DNA from: a virus
Virus record (IMG/VR): IMGVR_UViG_3300035157_000430
Span: 1-21,476 of that record
Direction: 5' to 3' (one strand)
DNA length: 21,476 nucleotides
The translations under genes were made by a program, and so were the position numbers. The notes under the pieces were generated by a model. That model worked only from the letters and a program-made list of their open reading frames with translations, did no database searches and was not told the DNA's origin. Shown here piece after piece: positions 1,423 through 18,323 of this stretch. Numbering within the stretch: position 1 is the stretch's first letter; the number at the start of each line of letters is the position of its first letter.

Positions 1423-2874
1423 CTATACTACATTTAGTTTTAATGCATGCTCCTTTACTTCATCTATATCTTTTAGATTTATAATCTTATGTTTAGTACA
1501 TAAGTCATAACATTCTTTCAACAAATTGTAACCATCAGTTGCACCGTATGCTCCGAACACATACATATCAGATACCCATATACGCCTAGCTGGCATAGTT
1601 GCCAACCATTCTAATGCTGGACCGTCTATGACATTACCAGCACCACTATGGTCATCCATATATTGTTCACTTACTCTCATACCATTCTTGGCAATGATAT
1701 GTAAATCACCAGTTAAATGACTACCGTTATACATAGCTATGTTAACAGCAGGTAATAACTGCATAATTTCTAGTATGTCTTCACCTGAAAAGGACATAGA
1801 ACCAGAAGCATCAATTAATATTGTGCCACCTTTAACATTCTGTTTTTGTTTAAATACTTTCTTATCAACACACCACCTATTCATATACTTTGGATTAACT
1901 CCATAGTCCATAGGTCTGTAGTTTCTAGAGTTCTTTAATCGTCCTTGTAAGTTAACGGTCATTGGGGGATTATGTATCTTCATTTCTCCCCACTTACCTA
2001 TACCAGTACTAGATGAGTAGTTCATTTTTTCTATTAAATCACCACGCATTCTCTTTTCAAGAGTAGAAACAGTATCTTCTAAAGTTGTTTGTCCTTCAGA
2101 CTCACCTTCAGTTGACTCTTCACCTTTACCTTCTTCACCTTCACCACCACTACTAGGTTGTGGTGCTGGTTTAATAACATCTTCAGGTTTCGGTTTATCA
2201 ATAAACTGATTAAGAATAAAAGATAACTTTTCAGCTAGCTTCTGTACTTTACGATAACTAGGTATTTGATTATATCTATGACTTAATAAATCATGTTGAA
2301 ATTTATTAGCTATACCCATAGCATAATTTAATTCTGATTTCCTTAAATCAGATAAATTATTAAGTTCACTATCAATAGCATCTCTAAATTTTTCTTTTAC
2401 ATGTGCAAAGTGTGGACTATCTGAATGACCATATCTTTCTGCAACAACAGAATAAGATGCTAATAGATATAATATTGCATCTGCTATTGAACCATTATAT
2501 ATTAATTGTTGTATGTCCATGTCAAGTTTATCTTTACATAACATCCAACTATCCATATCTAATTTAGCTTTAGCAGTAAGTAAGTAATTAATTCTTACTT
2601 CTTCTAGTGCTTCAACAGCATCACTTCTTGTACCCCTAAGTAGCTTACCCATAGTTTTCGGACTCCACTTGGCGTGACCAAGTTCATGTCTTCTAATCAT
2701 GCGACTATGATTGATACCACAATATTCACAAGCCCTATCCATAGGAACATACATTTGTCTATTCAAATTATCTGTTCTAGGTTGTGGGTCCTGTTCTGTG
2801 GTTTCCATCACATGCCACGAATCATCTTTTGTGACAATTTGTGGATATGGGTAGGCTTTAGGTTCGTTAGTCAT
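1423..2874 (-). CDS. CobT-like protein with HExxH motif and C-terminal VWA domain
   Basis: 483 residues. Near the N-terminus a CEYC pair (49-52) is followed by HELGH (63-67) and then EEVRIN (91-96). This is the arrangement of a zinc metallopeptidase of the HExxH...E type, with E91 or E92 as a possible third ligand. A helical middle part leads to an acidic, glycine- and serine-rich linker (about 241-264). The C-terminal von Willebrand A domain carries the metal-dependent adhesion motif DASGSMS (355-361) and a later WVSD strand. The gene start overlaps the end of the AAA+ gene by 8 nt, so the two products are made together. MoxR-type ATPases with VWA partners act as chaperone-like remodelling machines; the phage versions are often labelled cobaltochelatase CobS/CobT. 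No cobalamin gene is nearby, so a remodelling or proteolysis role is more likely than chelation. The target is unknown. Confidence 0.78.
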   Translation of the reverse strand: MTNEPKAYPYPQIVTKDDSWHVMETTEQDPQPRTDNLNRQMYVPMDRACEYCGINHSRMIRRHELGHAKWSPKTMGKLLRGTRSDAVEALEEVRINYLLTAKAKLDMDSWMLCKDKLDMDIQQLIYNGSIADAILYLLASYSVVAERYGHSDSPHFAHVKEKFRDAIDSELNNLSDLRKSELNYAMGIANKFQHDLLSHRYNQIPSYRKVQKLAEKLSFILNQFIDKPKPEDVIKPAPQPSSGGEGEEGKGEESTEGESEGQTTLEDTVSTLEKRMRGDLIEKMNYSSSTGIGKWGEMKIHNPPMTVNLQGRLKNSRNYRPMDYGVNPKYMNRWCVDKKVFKQKQNVKGGTILIDASGSMSFSGEDILEIMQLLPAVNIAMYNGSHLTGDLHIIAKNGMRVSEQYMDDHSGAGNVIDGPALEWLATMPARRIWVSDMYVFGAYGATDGYNLLKECYDLCTKHKIINLKDIDEVKEHALKLNVV

Positions 2875-3586
2875 CAGCTCTACTTAATGTAATAGCATCA
2901 ACTAATTCTTCAGACTTATGACCGAATACTAAACGACCAGCAGTTTCTGGTGTAAATCCTTCATCTTGTAATTGAAAGAATTCAGACCAAGCACGAACAG
3001 ATATTCGTTCTTCTGGGTCGTCTACCATTGTTGTATCGTGTATTACTTCGTGCCATTCATCAGGGAATTTTTCCATTGCCTGTGGATGTATTGTATCGAC
3101 ATGTATTTTAACAGGAAATCTGTCTTTCAACGCAAGTGGCAATGATTCCGGGGGACTGTTAGTAGTAGCAACTACTTGAAAACCTTCTGCAGGTCTTACA
3201 GTTTCCTTTTCGTCATTGTTTAATGTCAACATTGCTATGTCTTGGTCATCCAAAATGGCATGCAAGAATGTCATTGCGTCTGGTGATGCGTGGTCAATTT
3301 CGTTAATAACTAACCTACCACCATTACGCCATGCTTGTATTGCAATACCGTCATGCCATGCGAAACTACCGTCCTTACTTGGCTTGTAAAAACCTTCCAA
3401 GTTAGCAGAAGCAGTATCTTCTGTCATGGTTATTTGATAAACATTAGCGTTACCGTTAATGTCTAATGGTGTGCCTTGTTTTACAGCACTATATGTTTTA
3501 CCTGTACCTGGGGGACCGAAGAGTAACACTCTTCTAGACCTACCTAGCACAGATTGTATTAATTTCCAACAATCTATTTCTGACAT
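2867..3586 (-). CDS. MoxR/CobS-like AAA+ ATPase
   Basis: 239 residues with the expected motifs in order: Walker A GPPGTGKT (24-31), a Walker B strand LVINEID (92-98), sensor 1 VVATTNS (138-144), and LKDRF (153-157) holding a likely arginine finger. The protein is short for the family, with a small C-terminal lid. Where most members have Asp-Glu in Walker B this one reads Asn95-Glu96; the catalytic Glu is kept. A strong ribosome site (GAAAGGAAC) lies 6 nt before the ATG. It probably forms a ring that works on the VWA protein encoded directly downstream, with which it overlaps by 8 nt. The pair resembles MoxR-VWA and CobS-CobT systems. The substrate is unknown. Confidence 0.85.
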   Translation of the reverse strand: MSEIDCWKLIQSVLGRSRRVLLFGPPGTGKTYSAVKQGTPLDINGNANVYQITMTEDTASANLEGFYKPSKDGSFAWHDGIAIQAWRNGGRLVINEIDHASPDAMTFLHAILDDQDIAMLTLNNDEKETVRPAEGFQVVATTNSPPESLPLALKDRFPVKIHVDTIHPQAMEKFPDEWHEVIHDTTMVDDPEERISVRAWSEFFQLQDEGFTPETAGRLVFGHKSEELVDAITLSRADD

Positions 3587-3597
3587 GTTGTTCCTTT

Positions 3598-3903
3598 CTA
3601 TATTATTATTTCTTCTTGATTAGGTACATATCGACAATAAATGTCAACAGTATCTAAACTATTTCTTCTTTGTTGTATCTCAAACTTACCTTTTTCAGCA
3701 AGATGAGATATATTTCTTTGAGTCATTGACTCTATATTTGCTTTAACACCACTAATCCACTTATCTCTTACGCCTATTATGAACCATTGTTCTGGCTGAT
3801 TTAGTAATCTTTTAACTACATCATCAGTTAATAAGCTAGGTTGTCTACCTTTTCTATTGCTATAAGGGGCTGGTGGTACAGCTGGCTTTATTTCATCCAT
3901 CAT
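3598..3903 (-). CDS. Hypothetical protein, 101 aa, upstream of the AAA+ gene
   Basis: Not recognised. The N-terminus is proline-rich and probably disordered. The rest alternates helices and strands (QPEQWFIIGVRDKW, then TQRNISHLAEKGKFEI) and ends in a strand-like stretch (VDIYCRYVPN); it could be a small winged-helix-like domain. It starts with two successive ATGs inside the end of the upstream 152-aa gene (11-nt overlap), and GAAAGGA sits just before. It ends 11 nt before the AAA+ start. The tight packing suggests that the 152-aa, 101-aa, AAA+ and VWA products are one translational unit with a shared job, which is an inference. Confidence 0.72.
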   Translation of the reverse strand: MMDEIKPAVPPAPYSNRKGRQPSLLTDDVVKRLLNQPEQWFIIGVRDKWISGVKANIESMTQRNISHLAEKGKFEIQQRRNSLDTVDIYCRYVPNQEEIII

Positions 3904-4351
3904 TTCCTTTCAAGAAATCAGCAACATCATCACTGATATCTTCTTTCATTGCTTCGATGTTTTCCATTGTTACTCCTAACAATCGTTCTTCATCTTCTAG
4001 TAAATGCACTTGAATAGAAGTAGGTTCTATAGCTAACCATGCTCTAAAGATACCTCGCTTTTGAGTCTCTTCTCTGATATGCTCTACTTCTGCTACAGTT
4101 ACTGTATCCTTACCATCCAACATAGGATGATTACTAAGAAAGTCAGTCATAATTTCTGCCCTAATACTTTGAACAGTTTCATATGCTTCTTGGATAGCCT
4201 GCATACTAGTACTAGCTTTAACTAATACTTTATATACATCTGGTTCTTCATTTAAGAAGTGACCTTTATCATCGTGACTATCAAATCCAGCATATGCAAT
4301 TACTACTGCGTATTCTTTATTTAATTTTTCTATGACTTCAATAACATTCAT
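3893..4351 (-). CDS. Hypothetical protein, 152 aa, first gene of the AAA+/VWA unit
   Basis: Not recognised. It is a soluble, acidic, mixed alpha/beta protein: an N-terminal helix (VIEVIEKLNKEYA), a strand and loop (VIAYAGFDSHDDKG), long helices around residues 50-75, and an acidic C-terminal helix. No membrane segment or catalytic motif was seen. The ribosome site AAAGGA lies 6 nt before the ATG and directly follows, partly inside, a strong intergenic hairpin (4357-4405), which could limit its translation. It is the first gene after the structured RNA at 4463-4612 and leads the unit containing the AAA+ and VWA genes. Confidence 0.72.
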   Translation of the reverse strand: MNVIEVIEKLNKEYAVVIAYAGFDSHDDKGHFLNEEPDVYKVLVKASTSMQAIQEAYETVQSIRAEIMTDFLSNHPMLDGKDTVTVAEVEHIREETQKRGIFRAWLAIEPTSIQVHLLEDEERLLGVTMENIEAMKEDISDDVADFLKGNDG

Positions 4352-4356
4352 AATTT

Positions 4357-4405
4357 CCTTTCTTTATTCAGCTTTGTGCATAGTCGGAAGCTGAATAAAG
4401 GAAGG
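4357..4405 (-). promoter_or_regulatory. Intergenic hairpin covering a ribosome binding site (shared-loop family)
   Basis: Perfect stem of 11 bp (4362-4372 with 4390-4400), extendable to 13, around a 17-nt loop that reads TTCCGACTATGCACAAA on the minus strand. After one mismatch four more pairs can form, and these include the AAAGG of the ribosome site of the downstream 152-aa gene. Two other leftward hairpins (7532-7574, 7691-7754) have different stems but loops of the same length and the same TTCCGA(C/A)TA start. No U-tract follows, so it is not a terminator. Likely roles are protein binding, RNase III cutting or translation control. Confidence 0.6.
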
Positions 4406-4462
4406 GGACTCCTCTATTCAGTTCCTTTCACCATTCTAACCTCAGCACGCTAAGGCATATAA

Positions 4463-4612
4463 ATAGCTAGGTACCTACTTTCAGTCGTATACAACAGGGC
4501 ATATGTTTTTAATACTCTTACTAATAGATACCTAGCTATCTACATACGGTTGTCTATTGCTAGACAGTTGATATTTATTATCACTTGCGTGATATACCAA
4601 CATGTAGATAGC
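4463..4612 (-). ncRNA. Structured intergenic RNA: three-way junction with two GCAA tetraloops and a competing helix
   Basis: Read on the minus strand, P1 is a perfect 11-bp helix (4602-4612 with 4535-4545). P2 follows with no gap (4594-4601 with 4567-4574, 8 bp with one G-U), then a 5-nt bulge and a 5-bp helix closed by GCAA (4580-4593). P3 follows with no gap (4551-4556 with 4561-4566), also closed by GCAA. Only 5 nt (4546-4550) lie unpaired before P1 closes. The G-U pair and the GCAA loops exist only on this strand. Bases 4529-4539, which share 5 nt with P1, form a second perfect 11-bp helix with 4463-4473, so the two helices compete. It lies between the 74-aa gene and the hairpin before the 152-aa gene. 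It does not match a known riboswitch or ribozyme that I can name. It could be a switch, a stable small RNA or a processing element. Confidence 0.6.
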
Positions 4613-4627
4613 ATGCTTGCGTTTCAA

Positions 4628-4852
4628 TTACTCATCGGTAATTAAATATGGTGATTTAGTAAATATACTAGGTGCATGTGCGACAAAATTTTCATATCCA
4701 TCGTTATCAGCTAGTGTTACTAGTTCATCTATATAGTCTATCGCTTGTTCTTTACTCACATTAGAAGAAAAGAAAAAATCTACTGTTAGTATATTTTCAT
4801 CTCTCTTCATATTATCGTCTACATATTCATAAACTTCAGTCACAACAATCAC
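4628..4852 (-). CDS. Hypothetical small acidic protein, 74 aa
   Basis: Not recognised. It is an acidic protein with a strand-rich N-terminus (VTEVYEYVDD), then LTVDFFFSS, then a helix (EQAIDYIDELVTLADND). No cysteine cluster or membrane segment is present. The start is uncertain: the GTG at 4852 is very close to the AGAGGA ribosome site, so the GTG at 4843 (three codons in) may be used instead. It overlaps the end of the Cys-rich 77-aa gene by 17 nt. It is the last gene before the large structured RNA. Confidence 0.62.
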   Translation of the reverse strand: MIVVTEVYEYVDDNMKRDENILTVDFFFSSNVSKEQAIDYIDELVTLADNDGYENFVAHAPSIFTKSPYLITDE

Positions 4853-7489: not shown

Positions 7490-7531
7490 AATTTTCCTTT
7501 CTATCAGATGATATACATACTTTATATATAT

Positions 7532-11957: not shown

Positions 11958-12402
11958 AATAAGACCAGGAAGAGGAGGAGCTAGACAACCAGCTAAACCA
12001 GCATTTGTAGCACCAACTGGTCCAGGAGCAGGACCTGGTGCAAACAGAACAGACGGTGGTCCAGCTAATGCTAAACAACCAATTAGACGTTTACCTGATG
12101 CTGATTATGGTGCTAACGCAGATTTTGTAGGAGGTCAACAAGCAGTTGATGGTTTACCTGCAGTACAACCTATTGAAGTACCAGGTCAACCAATGTCTGA
12201 AAAACTTTGGAGTCAAACCGAACTACCATATAGAAAAGCAACTACAGGAAATATGATTGATATTAATCGTGATGGTATTGCAGATGAAATGGTAGATGAT
12301 ATGGATATACTTCTAGAAAGAATGGATGCTAGAAATAGAGATAATCCTAATCCTTATTTAACAGCTTTGAGAAGTGCAAGGCAATCTCAACGGTTCCTCT
12401 AG
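11950..12402 (+). CDS. Hypothetical virion-region protein with a calcium-loop-like motif, 150 aa
   Basis: Residues 1-80 are rich in Gly, Pro and Ala and almost certainly disordered (APTGPGAGPGANRTDGGPAN). Residues 104-112 read DINRDGIAD, the D-x-N-x-D-G pattern of EF-hand and dockerin calcium loops, followed by acidic residues and a helix (DILLERMDARN). AAGGAA lies 4 nt before the ATG. The stop TAG shares a G with the GTG of the giant gene. It could be a small head-completion, scaffold or linker protein; nothing in the sequence decides. Confidence 0.66.
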   Translation: MGKIRPGRGGARQPAKPAFVAPTGPGAGPGANRTDGGPANAKQPIRRLPDADYGANADFVGGQQAVDGLPAVQPIEVPGQPMSEKLWSQTELPYRKATTGNMIDINRDGIADEMVDDMDILLERMDARNRDNPNPYLTALRSARQSQRFL

Positions 12403-15400
12403 TGTGGAACTTCTTAGAAGAAAAAAAGGTTGCACAAGAAGCAATTAGACAATCTCAAAGGATTGAACAAGCTGACGCATTCTTAGATAATAACCCTCAG
12501 TTTCAAATTAGATTTGAAGCATTAACAGAAAGATATCCTCAGTTACCTGCAGAGTTATTAATGCCTATGGCACAAGAAACTGCTACTCCTGTTGACTCAC
12601 AAGGTTTTCAAGACATAGTAGATGAGTATGTAAAATTACAAGTAACTCAACAAGCTAATGATTATAAGAATATAAAAGAACAACATCACTATAAACCATA
12701 TTCTGATGATATGTATAACAATTATTTTTCTACAACAAGTGGTAAAGAAGATGATAGATATCCAGTTCAAGAATATTTTGATGAAAGAAAAAAAGATATA
12801 AGAACTTTCTTTACTCCTGTAAGAACATTTACTTTGTGGACTATGGCTTTAGCTGAAGGTTTAAGTGAAACTTTAGTTAAATACACACCACACTTTATAG
12901 GTAAATATGAAAATGACCAGATTAAATATAATAAAGAAACTGGAGAATGGGACCTTCTAGAAGGAAATGTAGATGATTTAAACCCTATGCAAAAATTATT
13001 AGTTAATGTTCCTGGAGGTCAATTTTTATTACCAGATAATAAACCACAATTTGCAGGAAGAGTCTTTGCTTATGCACAACAAATGAATGCTTTAGATAGA
13101 TACATGGAAGAAGGTAAATCATTAGAGTACGCAAAAAAATATGTACCTATTGATTTTGATGATTCTGTGATATTAAAAGAAAGTCCTGATTTTGGTACTA
13201 AACAAAATTGGTTAGAAGAAACTAGAGAATGGATGAAATTTCTAGGAGAAGCTAAAGATGTTGGAGGTTCTCCTTACGTATTAGAAATGATGAATCAAGT
13301 TAAAAGAGGACAACCTGTAAATATAAATACAAAAAATTGGTTAACTGTTGAATCTGTTATGGCAGAAGGCTCTGAAGAAGTTGCAGAGTTAATGCAACAA
13401 GGTTTTTCAAAAGCAGAAGCAACTAGATTATTTTATGAATGGAAAGGAACTCCTATTGTTAAACCTAATGCTGAAGGAGAAATTAATTGGACATCTATAC
13501 AAAAACCTAATGAAATAGATATATGGTCAGGACGTAGATTTATATATACACCAGAACTAGCAGAAGCATATGAACAAAATCGTCAATATAATATTAATGA
13601 AATAATGGGAACTAAAGTTCCATTTTCTCATGGAAGATATCAAGCTGGTTTAAAATTTGAAGTTGGTTCAGACCAATACAATACAATGTCTGGTTGGATT
13701 GATGGAACATTAAGAATAGTTTCAGAATTAGGTTTTTATAAAGTTGTTAATACTTTAAAGAAAGCAAATAAATTATCTAAAACAAGAAATGTTTTAACAG
13801 AGTTTGATAAAGAAGAATTATTTAGTCCTGTTAAAAAGAAAAATATTATTCAAGATTGGGTTAAAAAGAATAAAGCTAATCCGGTAACAGGTAAACATAT
13901 AGATAATGTTGATGAATTTTTAGAAACATTTACTGATTATCAAGCAAAAATGACTAAGCCTTTAAGGAAACAAATTAAACAAGCTAGAAAAAAAACAGCT
14001 TCTTTAAGAAAAGAATGGGGTTTAATTGCTGGTTGGACTCCAAGAATGTTTGCAAAGACAGGAGACGACTTAGTAGATATTTTAGATAGTAGTGGTGATT
14101 TAGATAGGTGGGTTAATAATAAATCAAGTATGGCATTGTTACAAGATTCTTTTACTAGAAACTTTCCTGAAAAGATACACGAAATAATGATAAATATAGA
14201 TAACAAAGAATCTATGAGAAAGTTATTTCAAAGAATTTATGGAAATGGTATTCGTTTAAATAAAATGGATGAAGTATTTGCATTAAGTAAATTGCCTAAA
14301 GGTCGTTCATACTTAACACAAAATGTAGCAAGAAACATGACTGGTAAAGATGTAGTAATACCTAGCTTAGGTTCAATGGCTGGTAGAGCAATTAATACTG
14401 CTTTACGTACTACAGATGAAGCTTGGCAAAATATAAACAGACGTTATAAGTCATCAAATATAAATATGTCTAAAACAAAGATAACAGATGATTCAAAAGT
14501 TATAACTAAAGATGATTATAGATTATGGGAACAAACAGGAGAAATGGCTGTAGGAAGAGGATTAGGTTTTTATTCTGAATTAACACAAGGCATGAGTCCT
14601 TGGTGGAAGAAAAGATTTGCTATACAACCTCAAACATCTATATCTTATACAAATAGAAATGATGCTTATAGAACAATAGTAAATCATATGGTATCTACAG
14701 GATACGCAACTAGAACAGCTGACTTGTTGTTAAAAGAATTTTATAACATGAAACATACCATTAATAATGTAAATGATTTTGCTCAAAAATTGTTTATACA
14801 AGATATTGGAATGATAGGTAGGAGAAGAGGTATTGAGAAAGTTAAAATTATTCAAAGGTATGTAGAAAAGAAATTTAAAAAAGAAGGTAGAATTGCTAAC
14901 TATTTCAGTGACCCTAAAGGAAATATGATGCCTGATTCTTGGACTGCAAGAAGAGTAAACCCAGATAGTGGACAAATAGACTTTATACCATCTTTAACAA
15001 AGATATCAGATGCTGCTAATCAAGGAGCGCCACTTACTAATAACAGAGCATTAAATAGAGTTATGAGTGAAATATTTGATATTACTGAAGAATTAACAGA
15101 AGGTGGTGTATTTAGAGCAGCTAATGAAAAAATTAAAAATTTAAAGAAAGATGGTAAAGCTAACTTTAGAATACAAACATCAGGCGCAGAAGGTGGTTCA
15201 TTAGATTTTGTATTAGGTTTTTGGATGAATGATTTATTAAAACCTTTCTTAATTACTAAACCTGCCTTAACTTCTAGAGTACTACTTGAAGAACAATTAT
15301 TTTTTGCTGTGTTTCCACAACTTTATGGTGCATTAAGTCTTACACCTAATAGATATTTTGGCTGGTTACATAGTTATGGTTATATGCCTAAACGTAGTCC

Positions 15401-18323
15401 TATAAGAAAATTTACTGAGTGGTTAATTGATAGTGGTGAAGACATTGATGAGATTATGCAATCGCAATATTATTACGATGCTATAAATGCACAGTTTGCA
15501 ATAGACGGTTTTAGTACAGCAAGTATTAATAAAAACATGATAAATTATCTACCTATAAGTCCTGAAAATCCATTAGCTATAGATGGATATATATTTCAAT
15601 ATGTTCACTTGTTTAATGATGACATCATAAGAGCATTAGCAAGAATAGAAAATGGTGACCCTTCAAAAATTATTGCATGGTCTAAAACTCCTGAAGCTCT
15701 TAAATTAAGGGAAAAATTAATAGCTAAATCAGGACAACAATATATAGCTAATAAAGTTATAGATATACGTAAACAAGATAATTGGCTTAAATATTTATTT
15801 GCAAGAGAAAATGAAATACGTATGAGAACAGGTATGCCTATGAAAGAAGGTAATCATTATTTTTATATAGATGAAGGAATTAATGCTGGAGAAGCTATGC
15901 ATGATATTTCTTATCCTTATTTGGGTTCAGCTGAATTAAGAAAAGGTTTAGCTACTGGTAGGTTTACAGATATAAATGGAAATGTAGTTCAATTAGGTAA
16001 TAGGTGGGAAGATTTTGGAACATTTAATCCTTACGAAAAATCTAAACCAATGAATCAAAAAAAATTAAAAGAAGCTATTGAAGGATTTATTGGATTAACA
16101 GATGAAGTAACAGGTAATAAAATATATGATTTTGGTTATGCAATAACACCTAGCAAGTTAGCTCAAAGCAGGGTTCAAGATTTTGTTGATAATGTTAATG
16201 ATGTATATGGAAATTGGTTTGAATTTTTATTGCAATCTCCGACAGCAAGATTAAATAGAGGTCCTATATTTAAACAATATAGATGGTTATTGATATCCGG
16301 AAACTTTCATAAATTTACTAAAAAATTACAAGCTAAATTTATTGCAGAAGCTGAAGCTGCAAATATACCTAAATATATGTTAGATGATATAAAAGGAACA
16401 GCTTTATTAAAATCTGGAAATCAAAATAATTATGAAGGTTGGAGCAACTTTGCTAATTCTTTTGCAGTTCAGAACATGAAAGATATTTTATATGATACAA
16501 AGAATAGACATAGAATATCTGAAGTAACAAGAAATATATTCCCATTCCCAGAAGTATTTATTGAAATGGGTAAAAGGTGGGCTAAAGGTGCAATAGAAAA
16601 CCCTTATACACTTAGAGCAGTTAACAATGCTTCTCAGGGATTAGAAAGTATGGGTGGTACATACTCTTATTATGGACAAGGTAGATGGGAAGAAGACCCA
16701 TTAACAGGAGAAACTGTATTTGTTTATCCTTGGCAACCTATGCATTCTGATTTAGCTTTTGGTGATGATACTAGATTTAGAGCAACTGCTACTGGTTTTG
16801 CTGGTGGAGTTAACATGGTAAGTACACAAGGATTTCCTGCTTCACAACCTTTGATGCAATTTGCTATGAATAAATTATTTGATAGTAAATTTGGACAAAT
16901 GGTTGGATTTAATCAAGAATTTCAAGATGAATTTTTTGGTAACTTTCCTCCTCCTGAATCTTTTGCAGAAGCTTTTAAATTTTGGGATATTCCATGGATA
17001 CAAAAACTTGCTGCAGCAGGTGACCCAACAGATATAATAAGAGAAAAGATATCTGATACTTATGTAGACCCTGATAATAATTTCTTATATTGGGATATGG
17101 ATAATAAATTAAATTCAATGCGTGCCGAAACAACTATTGAGTTTTGGGAAAATGCTAAAATAACTGGTCAAGATAGAATATGGTTAGAAGAAGGAAAACT
17201 AGATAAATATATTAAACATTTAATGCCTAACTGGGATGGTGTTAGAGCAGTTAAAAGTACTGAAGAATTACAACAATGGTTCTTAGAAAATCAAAATAAA
17301 CCTTATGAATATGCTAAAGGTGAATTAAGTATGAAATTTTTAGATGAAGCATTAATGATGTACTCAGCACATGAAGCTAGATGGTTTGCTCTTACAAGAG
17401 GTTTAACTCAGTTTTCTCAAGTAACTTCTTTTGTATTAAGAAGTTCTGTACAAGATAAATCTGGTAAGTGGTGGTCAACAGCTGTATTAGCAAAAGAATA
17501 TGATGATTTAGTACAAAAATATGGTGGTAACCATAGAATGGCTGCTGAAGAGTTTGGTGTTAGATTTGGTCTTGACCATGGATATATTCTTACAAGTACT
17601 AAAGATAAAAGCCCAGAAGCTGCTGTCTTTAGTCAAGAATTAAAAATATGGAAAGATGAACATGAAGATGAGATTATCCAATTGCCTTTAACTTATCATA
17701 TGTTAAATCAAGAAAATCCTGAAGCAGAAAGAACATATGCAGATATGATATGGCAAGCTACATTAAATCCTAATGATTATTTATTAAGTGCAAATGATAC
17801 TGTTGCTTGGTTCAAATATGACCAATTTAAAAAACAAACAGAACAACAAGTAATAAATGGAGAGATTTCTGCAGCAGAAAAAGAGTATCTGGATAAAGCA
17901 TTTAGATTAGCTTTAACTGAATCACATCCTGGTTTCCAAGCATCTTACGGTCAAACTGAACCAGCTACAGTACAAGATAGATTTAAAGAAATGCGTGATA
18001 GATGGACAACATTAGATTTTCCAAAAGAATATGAAGCAGGTAGAGGATTTAATGAGTTTTATGAATATTGGTTAGAAGCTGAAGAAGCTTCTAGAGAGTT
18101 AAGCCAATCTAATTCTTCTACTTGGTGGTTAACATCTAATAATGAAGAAGCTTTTCTTTGGAGAAAAAGAATATCAGATGCAGCGTTTATGGTAATTGCA
18201 GAGTATCCTGATTTTATGCCTATATATCAAAATGTGATAATACGTATGTTTTCAGGCGATAGAGATATTTTAGAGTATAATAGTTATTTAGGTCAGCAAA
18301 GACAGAGATTTGGAGATAGTTAA
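12402..18323 (+). CDS. Giant virion-associated protein, 1973 aa
   Basis: GTG start overlapping the upstream stop (TAGTG); the first internal ATG is over 50 codons later. The nearly 6-kb frame is intact. I do not recognise an enzyme: no Walker, lysozyme or polymerase motif was found. It is lysine-, glutamate- and aromatic-rich and mostly helical. Hydrophobic stretches around residues 930-985 (FLITKPALTSRVLLEEQLFF, then AVFPQLYGAL) and near 1380 (NIFPFPEVFIEMGKRW) recall segments of phage large polyvalent and internal virion proteins, which are packed in or under the head and enter the host envelope at infection. A GGVNMVSTQGFPASQP stretch follows at about residue 1470. Its place right after the portal genes supports a structural, probably ejected, role. 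That is inference. Confidence 0.75.
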   Translation: MWNFLEEKKVAQEAIRQSQRIEQADAFLDNNPQFQIRFEALTERYPQLPAELLMPMAQETATPVDSQGFQDIVDEYVKLQVTQQANDYKNIKEQHHYKPYSDDMYNNYFSTTSGKEDDRYPVQEYFDERKKDIRTFFTPVRTFTLWTMALAEGLSETLVKYTPHFIGKYENDQIKYNKETGEWDLLEGNVDDLNPMQKLLVNVPGGQFLLPDNKPQFAGRVFAYAQQMNALDRYMEEGKSLEYAKKYVPIDFDDSVILKESPDFGTKQNWLEETREWMKFLGEAKDVGGSPYVLEMMNQVKRGQPVNINTKNWLTVESVMAEGSEEVAELMQQGFSKAEATRLFYEWKGTPIVKPNAEGEINWTSIQKPNEIDIWSGRRFIYTPELAEAYEQNRQYNINEIMGTKVPFSHGRYQAGLKFEVGSDQYNTMSGWIDGTLRIVSELGFYKVVNTLKKANKLSKTRNVLTEFDKEELFSPVKKKNIIQDWVKKNKANPVTGKHIDNVDEFLETFTDYQAKMTKPLRKQIKQARKKTASLRKEWGLIAGWTPRMFAKTGDDLVDILDSSGDLDRWVNNKSSMALLQDSFTRNFPEKIHEIMINIDNKESMRKLFQRIYGNGIRLNKMDEVFALSKLPKGRSYLTQNVARNMTGKDVVIPSLGSMAGRAINTALRTTDEAWQNINRRYKSSNINMSKTKITDDSKVITKDDYRLWEQTGEMAVGRGLGFYSELTQGMSPWWKKRFAIQPQTSISYTNRNDAYRTIVNHMVSTGYATRTADLLLKEFYNMKHTINNVNDFAQKLFIQDIGMIGRRRGIEKVKIIQRYVEKKFKKEGRIANYFSDPKGNMMPDSWTARRVNPDSGQIDFIPSLTKISDAANQGAPLTNNRALNRVMSEIFDITEELTEGGVFRAANEKIKNLKKDGKANFRIQTSGAEGGSLDFVLGFWMNDLLKPFLITKPALTSRVLLEEQLFFAVFPQLYGALSLTPNRYFGWLHSYGYMPKRSPIRKFTEWLIDSGEDIDEIMQSQYYYDAINAQFAIDGFSTASINKNMINYLPISPENPLAIDGYIFQYVHLFNDDIIRALARIENGDPSKIIAWSKTPEALKLREKLIAKSGQQYIANKVIDIRKQDNWLKYLFARENEIRMRTGMPMKEGNHYFYIDEGINAGEAMHDISYPYLGSAELRKGLATGRFTDINGNVVQLGNRWEDFGTFNPYEKSKPMNQKKLKEAIEGFIGLTDEVTGNKIYDFGYAITPSKLAQSRVQDFVDNVNDVYGNWFEFLLQSPTARLNRGPIFKQYRWLLISGNFHKFTKKLQAKFIAEAEAANIPKYMLDDIKGTALLKSGNQNNYEGWSNFANSFAVQNMKDILYDTKNRHRISEVTRNIFPFPEVFIEMGKRWAKGAIENPYTLRAVNNASQGLESMGGTYSYYGQGRWEEDPLTGETVFVYPWQPMHSDLAFGDDTRFRATATGFAGGVNMVSTQGFPASQPLMQFAMNKLFDSKFGQMVGFNQEFQDEFFGNFPPPESFAEAFKFWDIPWIQKLAAAGDPTDIIREKISDTYVDPDNNFLYWDMDNKLNSMRAETTIEFWENAKITGQDRIWLEEGKLDKYIKHLMPNWDGVRAVKSTEELQQWFLENQNKPYEYAKGELSMKFLDEALMMYSAHEARWFALTRGLTQFSQVTSFVLRSSVQDKSGKWWSTAVLAKEYDDLVQKYGGNHRMAAEEFGVRFGLDHGYILTSTKDKSPEAAVFSQELKIWKDEHEDEIIQLPLTYHMLNQENPEAERTYADMIWQATLNPNDYLLSANDTVAWFKYDQFKKQTEQQVINGEISAAEKEYLDKAFRLALTESHPGFQASYGQTEPATVQDRFKEMRDRWTTLDFPKEYEAGRGFNEFYEYWLEAEEASRELSQSNSSTWWLTSNNEEAFLWRKRISDAAFMVIAEYPDFMPIYQNVIIRMFSGDRDILEYNSYLGQQRQRFGDS

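Follow-up and report, generated by a model that had tools for sequence, protein, structure and literature searches.

Attenuators and the expression platforms of riboswitches are built from mutually exclusive helices that share one common strand, one of the two states holding a terminator arm or a Shine-Dalgarno sequence (SD). In this work, we describe a leader with the same kind of competition, but with three to nine or more alternating arms, here called S and T, instead of one pair of alternatives, and with freely exchanged heads in the place of a conserved aptamer. It was found in the window, that is, the whole 21,476-base IMG/VR virus record analysed here, whose source is apparently an uncultured marine phage. 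Judged from its sequence, the modular array appears to be categorically new: it would work like an attenuator or a riboswitch expression platform, and it seems to fit no named family. We know of no described RNA class that joins fixed alternating complementary arms with a large repertoire of exchangeable heads, and a literature search (preprints and most subscription papers lay outside its scope) retrieved no prior description of such an array.

Other elements resemble it in part. The PeSL of T4-type phages are reportedly mobile intergenic cassettes of regulatory stem-loops, exchanged between genomes and marked by an early promoter beside the stem-loop. The array is likewise made of exchanged intergenic stem-loop cassettes of phages, whereas long competing arms and diverse heads are not known from PeSL. 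At the window site, sigma-70-type promoter-like sites numbered 4 against 6.2 expected, in a scan that leaves out phage-type promoters. GOLLD and ROOL are also structured, phage-borne RNAs from uncultured sources, but the array is much smaller, intercistronic and modular, and it has no Rfam match. Integron attC sites share with it the arrays of palindromic arms, the variable inner parts and the cassette exchange; unlike them, the array arm TGTGTTACAAGCTATC shows by inspection neither GTTRRRY nor RYYYAAC core boxes, no tyrosine integrase was recognised among the window ORFs scanned, and the G.U pairing is strand-biased. The ssNA-helicase RNA (RF03070) consists of a hairpin followed by UGUAGCAUGUAGCA, similar to the T arm GGUAGCUUGUAGCA, and sub-threshold matches to it land on T arms in the majority of tested records. 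The best of these scored 21.4 bits, below the gathering score of 41.5 bits, and RF03070 models a single hairpin without array or competing arms. Its weak resemblance may be that of a distant relative of one module.

Competing helices in the leader

The leader lies on the minus strand in a 276-nt gap between ORF 4628-4852 and ORF 3893-4351, and on its 3' side come, in order, the 152-aa ORF, a 101-aa ORF and the genes of AAA+ and VWA type (table 1).

Table 1. Features of the leader and of the genes downstream, in window coordinates
Feature	Position	Strand	Basis
P1 helix, 11 bp	4602-4612 with 4535-4545	minus	fold
Arm S1 (GCUAUCUACAU), 5' strand of P1	4602-4612	minus	P1 11/11 paired in 22 aligned loci
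P2 hairpin, 8 bp plus 5 bp, GCAA loop	4567-4601	minus	fold; 4594-4601 with 4567-4574, top 4589-4593 with 4580-4584
P3 hairpin, 6 bp, GCAA loop	4551-4566	minus	4561-4566 with 4551-4556
Linker ACCGU, 5 nt, closing the three-way junction	4546-4550	minus	sequence
Outer half of arm T, common to P1 and the competing helix	4535-4545	minus	joint changes with S1 and with S2 at T positions 5 and 10
Inner half of arm T, pairing with S2 only	4523-4534	minus	23-bp T:S2 helix
Arm S2, 3' strand of the competing helix	4457-4479	minus	23-pair T:S2 helix
Head on the competing helix: AGUA/GAA internal-loop module and GCCCUGUU terminal loop	4473-4527	minus	covariance model R1, 60.4 bits, E 3e-13 (the 39 training sequences include the window copy)
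Small hairpin CCUUAG-CGUG-CUGAGG, 3' of the array	4440-4455	minus	sequence; relatives have homologous UAGCGUGCU hairpins
Strand u, pairs with v, SD then free	4409-4425	minus	u/v/w test
Strand v, pairs with u or w	4387-4405	minus	u/v/w score 31, shuffle maximum 19
Strand w, holds the SD AAAGG of the 152-aa gene	4357-4374	minus	u/v/w test
152-aa gene, first after the leader, without known function	3893-4351	minus	ORF
AAA+ (MoxR/CobS-type) gene, farther downstream, same direction	2867-3586	minus	Pfam AAA_5, E 3e-20
VWA/MIDAS-type gene, AAA+ partner	1423-2874	minus	DxSGS sequence motif

An earlier note on this DNA had described a three-way junction on the minus strand, and its layout, including the 5-nt linker, is precisely as claimed. 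The junction (4535-4612) has a minimum free energy (MFE) of -31.6 kcal/mol (z -6.4), a value equalled by 0/200 shuffles. The choice of strand also holds, the whole 276-nt gap folding better in the sense direction (-93.7 kcal/mol, z -7.9) than on the other strand (-74.1 kcal/mol, z -4.4). The note could not match the junction to a named class, and the window and 25 related loci likewise gave no Rfam match at gathering score. Most sub-threshold matches were to microRNA hairpins; these were caused by the long stem and dismissed as chance. Compensatory changes, proposed there as a check, are present in homologous regions in all three helices of the junction and in the helix that competes with it. 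Five pairs of P1 changed on both sides in 22 aligned loci, a shorter homologous P2 shows compensatory change in four of its five pairs, and P3 has double changes in 3/6 pairs, with the GNRA loop kept in 13/13 sequences. The place of the linker is taken in most relatives by AACCATA, GTCCATA or GACCATA, and the junction itself varies among them or lacks P3. It is one exchangeable module of an array rather than a stand-alone class.

The competing helix had been read as 11 bp long, with five bases shared with P1, and both figures have to be raised. It comprises 23 continuous pairs, G-U included (z -6.3), which join 4523-4545 with 4457-4479 and are 23/23 paired in the window; because it spans 23 pairs of arm T, the entire 3' strand of P1, all 11 bases, is common to both helices. 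The claim of two mutually exclusive folds is upheld, with S1:T and T:S2 both conserved with covariation on one T strand. In 22 aligned triplets, S1:T was 100% paired with 5 double-changed pairs, and T:S2 93.5% paired with 13; these double changes do not count as independent events because S1 and S2 were placed partly by complementarity and the aligned sequences are related to each other, and the 100% pairing is partly built in, since the sequences of the alignments (A1 and A2) were chosen by complementarity. In cells paired, 0/500 shuffles did as well for either helix, and every slid register was exceeded too. Moreover, T positions 5 and 10 show triple changes across S1, T and S2, both TAT to CGC and CGC to TAT. 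When AAA+-anchored leaders were tested for two strong helices on one strand, most scored at least 28, while the highest of 74 shuffles reached 27. For a handful of loci the best-scoring pair came not from the array but from a competition farther downstream (u/v/w, see below).

The computed energy gap between the two states averaged -1.6 kcal/mol (range -6.7 to +8.0) on a total of about -47 kcal/mol. S1:T was part of the MFE structure in every shortened transcript (19/19), and T:S2 was computed as the more stable state in 14 of 19 loci, so that the role of S1:T may be purely kinetic. The inner half of T:S2 persists in both states and the switch would therefore be a branch migration.

The pairs of the arms also differ between strands. 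Over 115 elements among the matches listed, they hold 344 G.T and only 2 A.C when read in the gene-sense direction. Since a DNA palindrome is indifferent to which strand holds the wobble, this imbalance indicates selection on the gene-sense strand, which points to an element that acts as RNA.

Arrays and heads in related phages

We took 80 relatives through the AAA+ gene; a look-up by either gene flanking the leader found none. In most of the 80, the corresponding site is an untranslated gap about 250-350 nt long, and many gave an nhmmer match to the window element. In their arrays, S (GCUAYYUAYAU) is followed by T (AUGUAGGUAGCUUGUAGCACA), then by another S (UGUGUUACAAGCUAYCUAY), and the series continues in this way; each pair of neighbouring arms encloses a structured head. 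The window array is S-T-S, and arrays elsewhere reach nine or more arms.

A survey with one T-arm 16-mer returned at least 120 stretches. Among the matches listed, S and T alternate strictly in 102/119 arrays (shuffled mean 26, maximum 38), the first arm is S in 97/119 and the last in 89/119. Likewise among the matches listed, the flanking genes were both co-directional in 73 cases and both opposite in 2, ORFs covered only 5/115 elements, and clade proteins occurred in 81/119 loci, the arrays belonging to one phage clade where this was testable. The 152-aa gene of the window has homologues 3' of the array in 25 other entries. A genome usually has one or two copies, clustered, for which reason we rejected a dispersed repeat. 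Array sites differ in genome position and in the gene families downstream, many of them unrelated, and some clade members with the same gene neighbours have no array. The element has a sharp boundary and near-invariant arms, the 5' arm being preset by the search pattern; degenerate arms were seen in some loci (L018, L023).

In a search for a host, none of 84,980 genomes of bacteria and archaea contained the 19-mer arm. No cultured relative turned up either: blastn with a typical element against 50,697 sequenced phages gave no match. The terminase reached 27% identity at best with sequenced phages among the matches listed, and its closest counterparts outside the virus collection were on only two MAG contigs, marine going by their names. 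The MAG contig PBPX01000048 (54 kb; L202 and L204) has two terminase genes, and the same RNA head occurs on it twice, about 44 kb apart; it is either a concatemer or a contig that holds two phages, and its Actinomycetota label is insecure as host.

The head on the competing helix of the window overlaps arms T and S2. Its family of 39 sequences (alignment A5) was picked solely by the loop motif AGUARGA...CCCU...YGAA and thus provides an independent test of pairing: the outer helix is 100% paired, with two-sided change in 4/4 pairs, and no shuffle matches the model in cells paired or in covariation score. The model was positive in 13/32 records, with one copy each and three in a multi-contig MAG. 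We read the AGUA/GAA pattern as a putative sarcin-ricin or bulged-G motif. In this family (the window and 39 related loci) the terminal loop is almost invariant, and C-rich loops (CCCC, CCCU) recur in further leader hairpins. A second head family shows some compensatory changes, and the small hairpin 3' of the array shares its motif with a recurring head.

After halving, the original listing having held both strands, we counted about 126 distinct T..S heads in about 70 families and about 107 distinct S..T heads in about 48. As many as 18 unrelated T..S heads occur across 25 arrays that precede one gene family. Heads are exchanged in otherwise constant surroundings: 2 of 28 contexts, defined by flanks at least 90% identical across 260 nt on both sides, hold three unrelated heads each, and the 300-nt flanks of L040, L100 and L130, whose heads are unrelated, are 97-100% identical. 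Replacement was found in 0/274 control segments.

Ten heads contain a perfect tRNA-type T arm (5 bp, 7 nt), and it is possible that they are tRNA mimics or decoys. ARAGORN reported no complete tRNA in the window or in 38 loci. Examples of perfect arms, such as ATAGG-TTCGAAT-CCTAT, are found in the heads of L169, L060, L122, L108, L132, L156, L065 and L154, and one family of such heads also has a D-like arm and an 'anticodon' loop of 9-10 nt.

Possible output sites and alternative readings

Among the matches listed, the last arm is S in 37/37 arrays with an SD and a start codon at most 70 nt away, at a median gap of 8 nt, and arrays of this kind precede many unrelated gene families. In one subclade, a D-type hairpin uses the final S arm as its 5' strand and has the features of an intrinsic terminator (-20 to -23 kcal/mol, ending in U5-U9; 8 loci with several different heads), and the same arm pairs with the upstream T as an antiterminator. 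Thus, 8 relatives present the arrangement expected of an attenuator, with a terminator arm that also pairs an upstream antiterminator strand. The U8 hairpin of L182 was passed over by the automatic terminator scan, its loop being above the scan's 8-nt limit.

In the window copy no U-tract follows the array on the minus strand, hence there is no terminator, and about 105 nt separate S2 from the start codon. Farther downstream is a competition absent from the earlier note, in which strand v pairs either u or w. Scores at the SD were 21-32 in 13 loci (the window and 12 others), all above 114 shuffles (maximum 19), and part of the complementarity could come from composition because the strands are purine- and pyrimidine-rich. 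By these predicted pairings, u/v/w would sequester the SD in the manner of a translational switch. The array and u/v/w have no strand in common in the window. Four loci (L015, L030, L034 and L049) have a u/v/w-type competition (TTTCCTTTCTGTA / TACAGAAAGGAAG) for the SD at a gene start near the AAA+ gene, with no adjacent array.

On balance, we think that the element is an untranslated leader within a polycistronic phage mRNA and acts in cis, its array of alternating arms with exchangeable heads being most likely a folding switch on the next gene. Each T would pair with the preceding or the following S, making adjacent hairpins mutually exclusive; an odd arm count would always leave one S unpaired, either at the start of the array or at its end. 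During transcription S1:T would form first and S2 would then compete by branch migration at almost equal energy, and for this reason the pairing register could be tipped by whatever stabilises one head, be it a ligand, a protein, the ribosome or the speed of the polymerase. The register would in turn set the state of the last S, and so act on the ribosome-binding site or terminator: this arm lies just 5' of the SD in many phages, forms the 5' strand of the terminator in one subclade, and precedes u/v/w in the window. Against this reading, heads without any link to the downstream gene would be odd for a sensor. We put forward more tentatively, as an idea that could well prove wrong, that the arrays are a hypervariable library of folded RNA domains on universal alternating arms, into which heads are plugged by recombination at the arms, and that an odd-armed array is a frustrated domino chain relaying the fold of any head to the next gene's ribosome-binding site or terminator. 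If such a relay is true, these phages have evolved an all-purpose mechanical socket that takes RNA sensors or effectors, and head swaps among near-identical phages would reveal what selects on regulatory or decoy RNAs. The array family is also a source of many new RNA domains ready for transcription and probing, among them the covariation-supported head whose AGUA/GAA internal loop and GCCCUGU terminal loop are highly conserved.

The free exchange of heads means that they could also work in trans or as decoys. RNase III prefers double-stranded arms of 20-23 bp, and the arms have this length; the enzyme might cut them and free the heads as small trans-acting RNAs, for instance decoys against host defence, with the alternation picking the released set and the exchange of heads reflecting an arms race. 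The heads are indeed highly diverse, structured and unrelated to the downstream gene, some carry the tRNA-type T arm, and they are swapped between otherwise near-identical phages. We nevertheless regard this cassette array as unlikely, for it leaves unexplained the competing alternation of neighbouring arms, the position of the last S beside the SD and the shared terminator arm, and no head matches a known trans-acting RNA at Rfam threshold. The same exchange, with flanks about 90-100% identical in two contexts and none of the control segments replaced, would suit a mobile or recombination element at the DNA level, whose terminal inverted repeats or recombination seams would be the arms and whose folding would be a by-product; so would the sharp boundary, the near-invariant arms (the 5' one preset by the search pattern) and the varied genome positions with unrelated genes downstream. 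The strand-specific wobble pairs, the triple covariation of S1/T/S2 and the covarying head helices would hardly arise in this way, the scanned window ORFs included no recognisable integrase- or transposase-type gene, and copies are usually one or two per genome. We consider this reading rather improbable, the covariation and the G.U bias speaking against a DNA element as the sole explanation; arms used as seams for homologous recombination may be compatible with a role as RNA.

The earlier note had likened the locus to a riboswitch, a comparison that stands for the evolutionarily conserved exclusive helices and fails for the heads, which do not track the downstream gene and thereby argue against a classical metabolite riboswitch. 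Such a riboswitch with the three-way junction as its aptamer would account for the exclusive folds, the GNRA loops and outputs of the SD-hiding and terminator types, but it is very improbable given the exchangeable heads, of which many unrelated ones precede a single gene family, the variable junction and the lack of an Rfam match.

Neighbouring genes and other features of the window

The VWA-type gene had no Pfam match, its sole match being an unnamed PHROG, and its protein carries an N-terminal CxxC...RHELGHAKW stretch that resembles a zinc protease motif. A Y RNA/Ro60 system, considered in view of this gene and the tRNA-like heads, was rejected: there is neither a TROVE domain nor a YrlA match, and the VWA gene pairs with the AAA+ gene. 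A retron and group I or II introns were also rejected, as neither a recognisable reverse transcriptase nor an Rfam match was found.

A short conserved GAAACGCA motif lies right after the upstream stop codon (4613-4630, minus strand) in the window and relatives; it is also kept in three relatives without an array at that place (L033, L043 and L063). The 1973-aa ORF at 12402-18323 (plus strand) has no PHROG match and shows low identity to relatives, whereas the terminase and portal are well conserved. At about position 7500, GC skew and gene direction switch together, from a leftward block to the rightward structural block.
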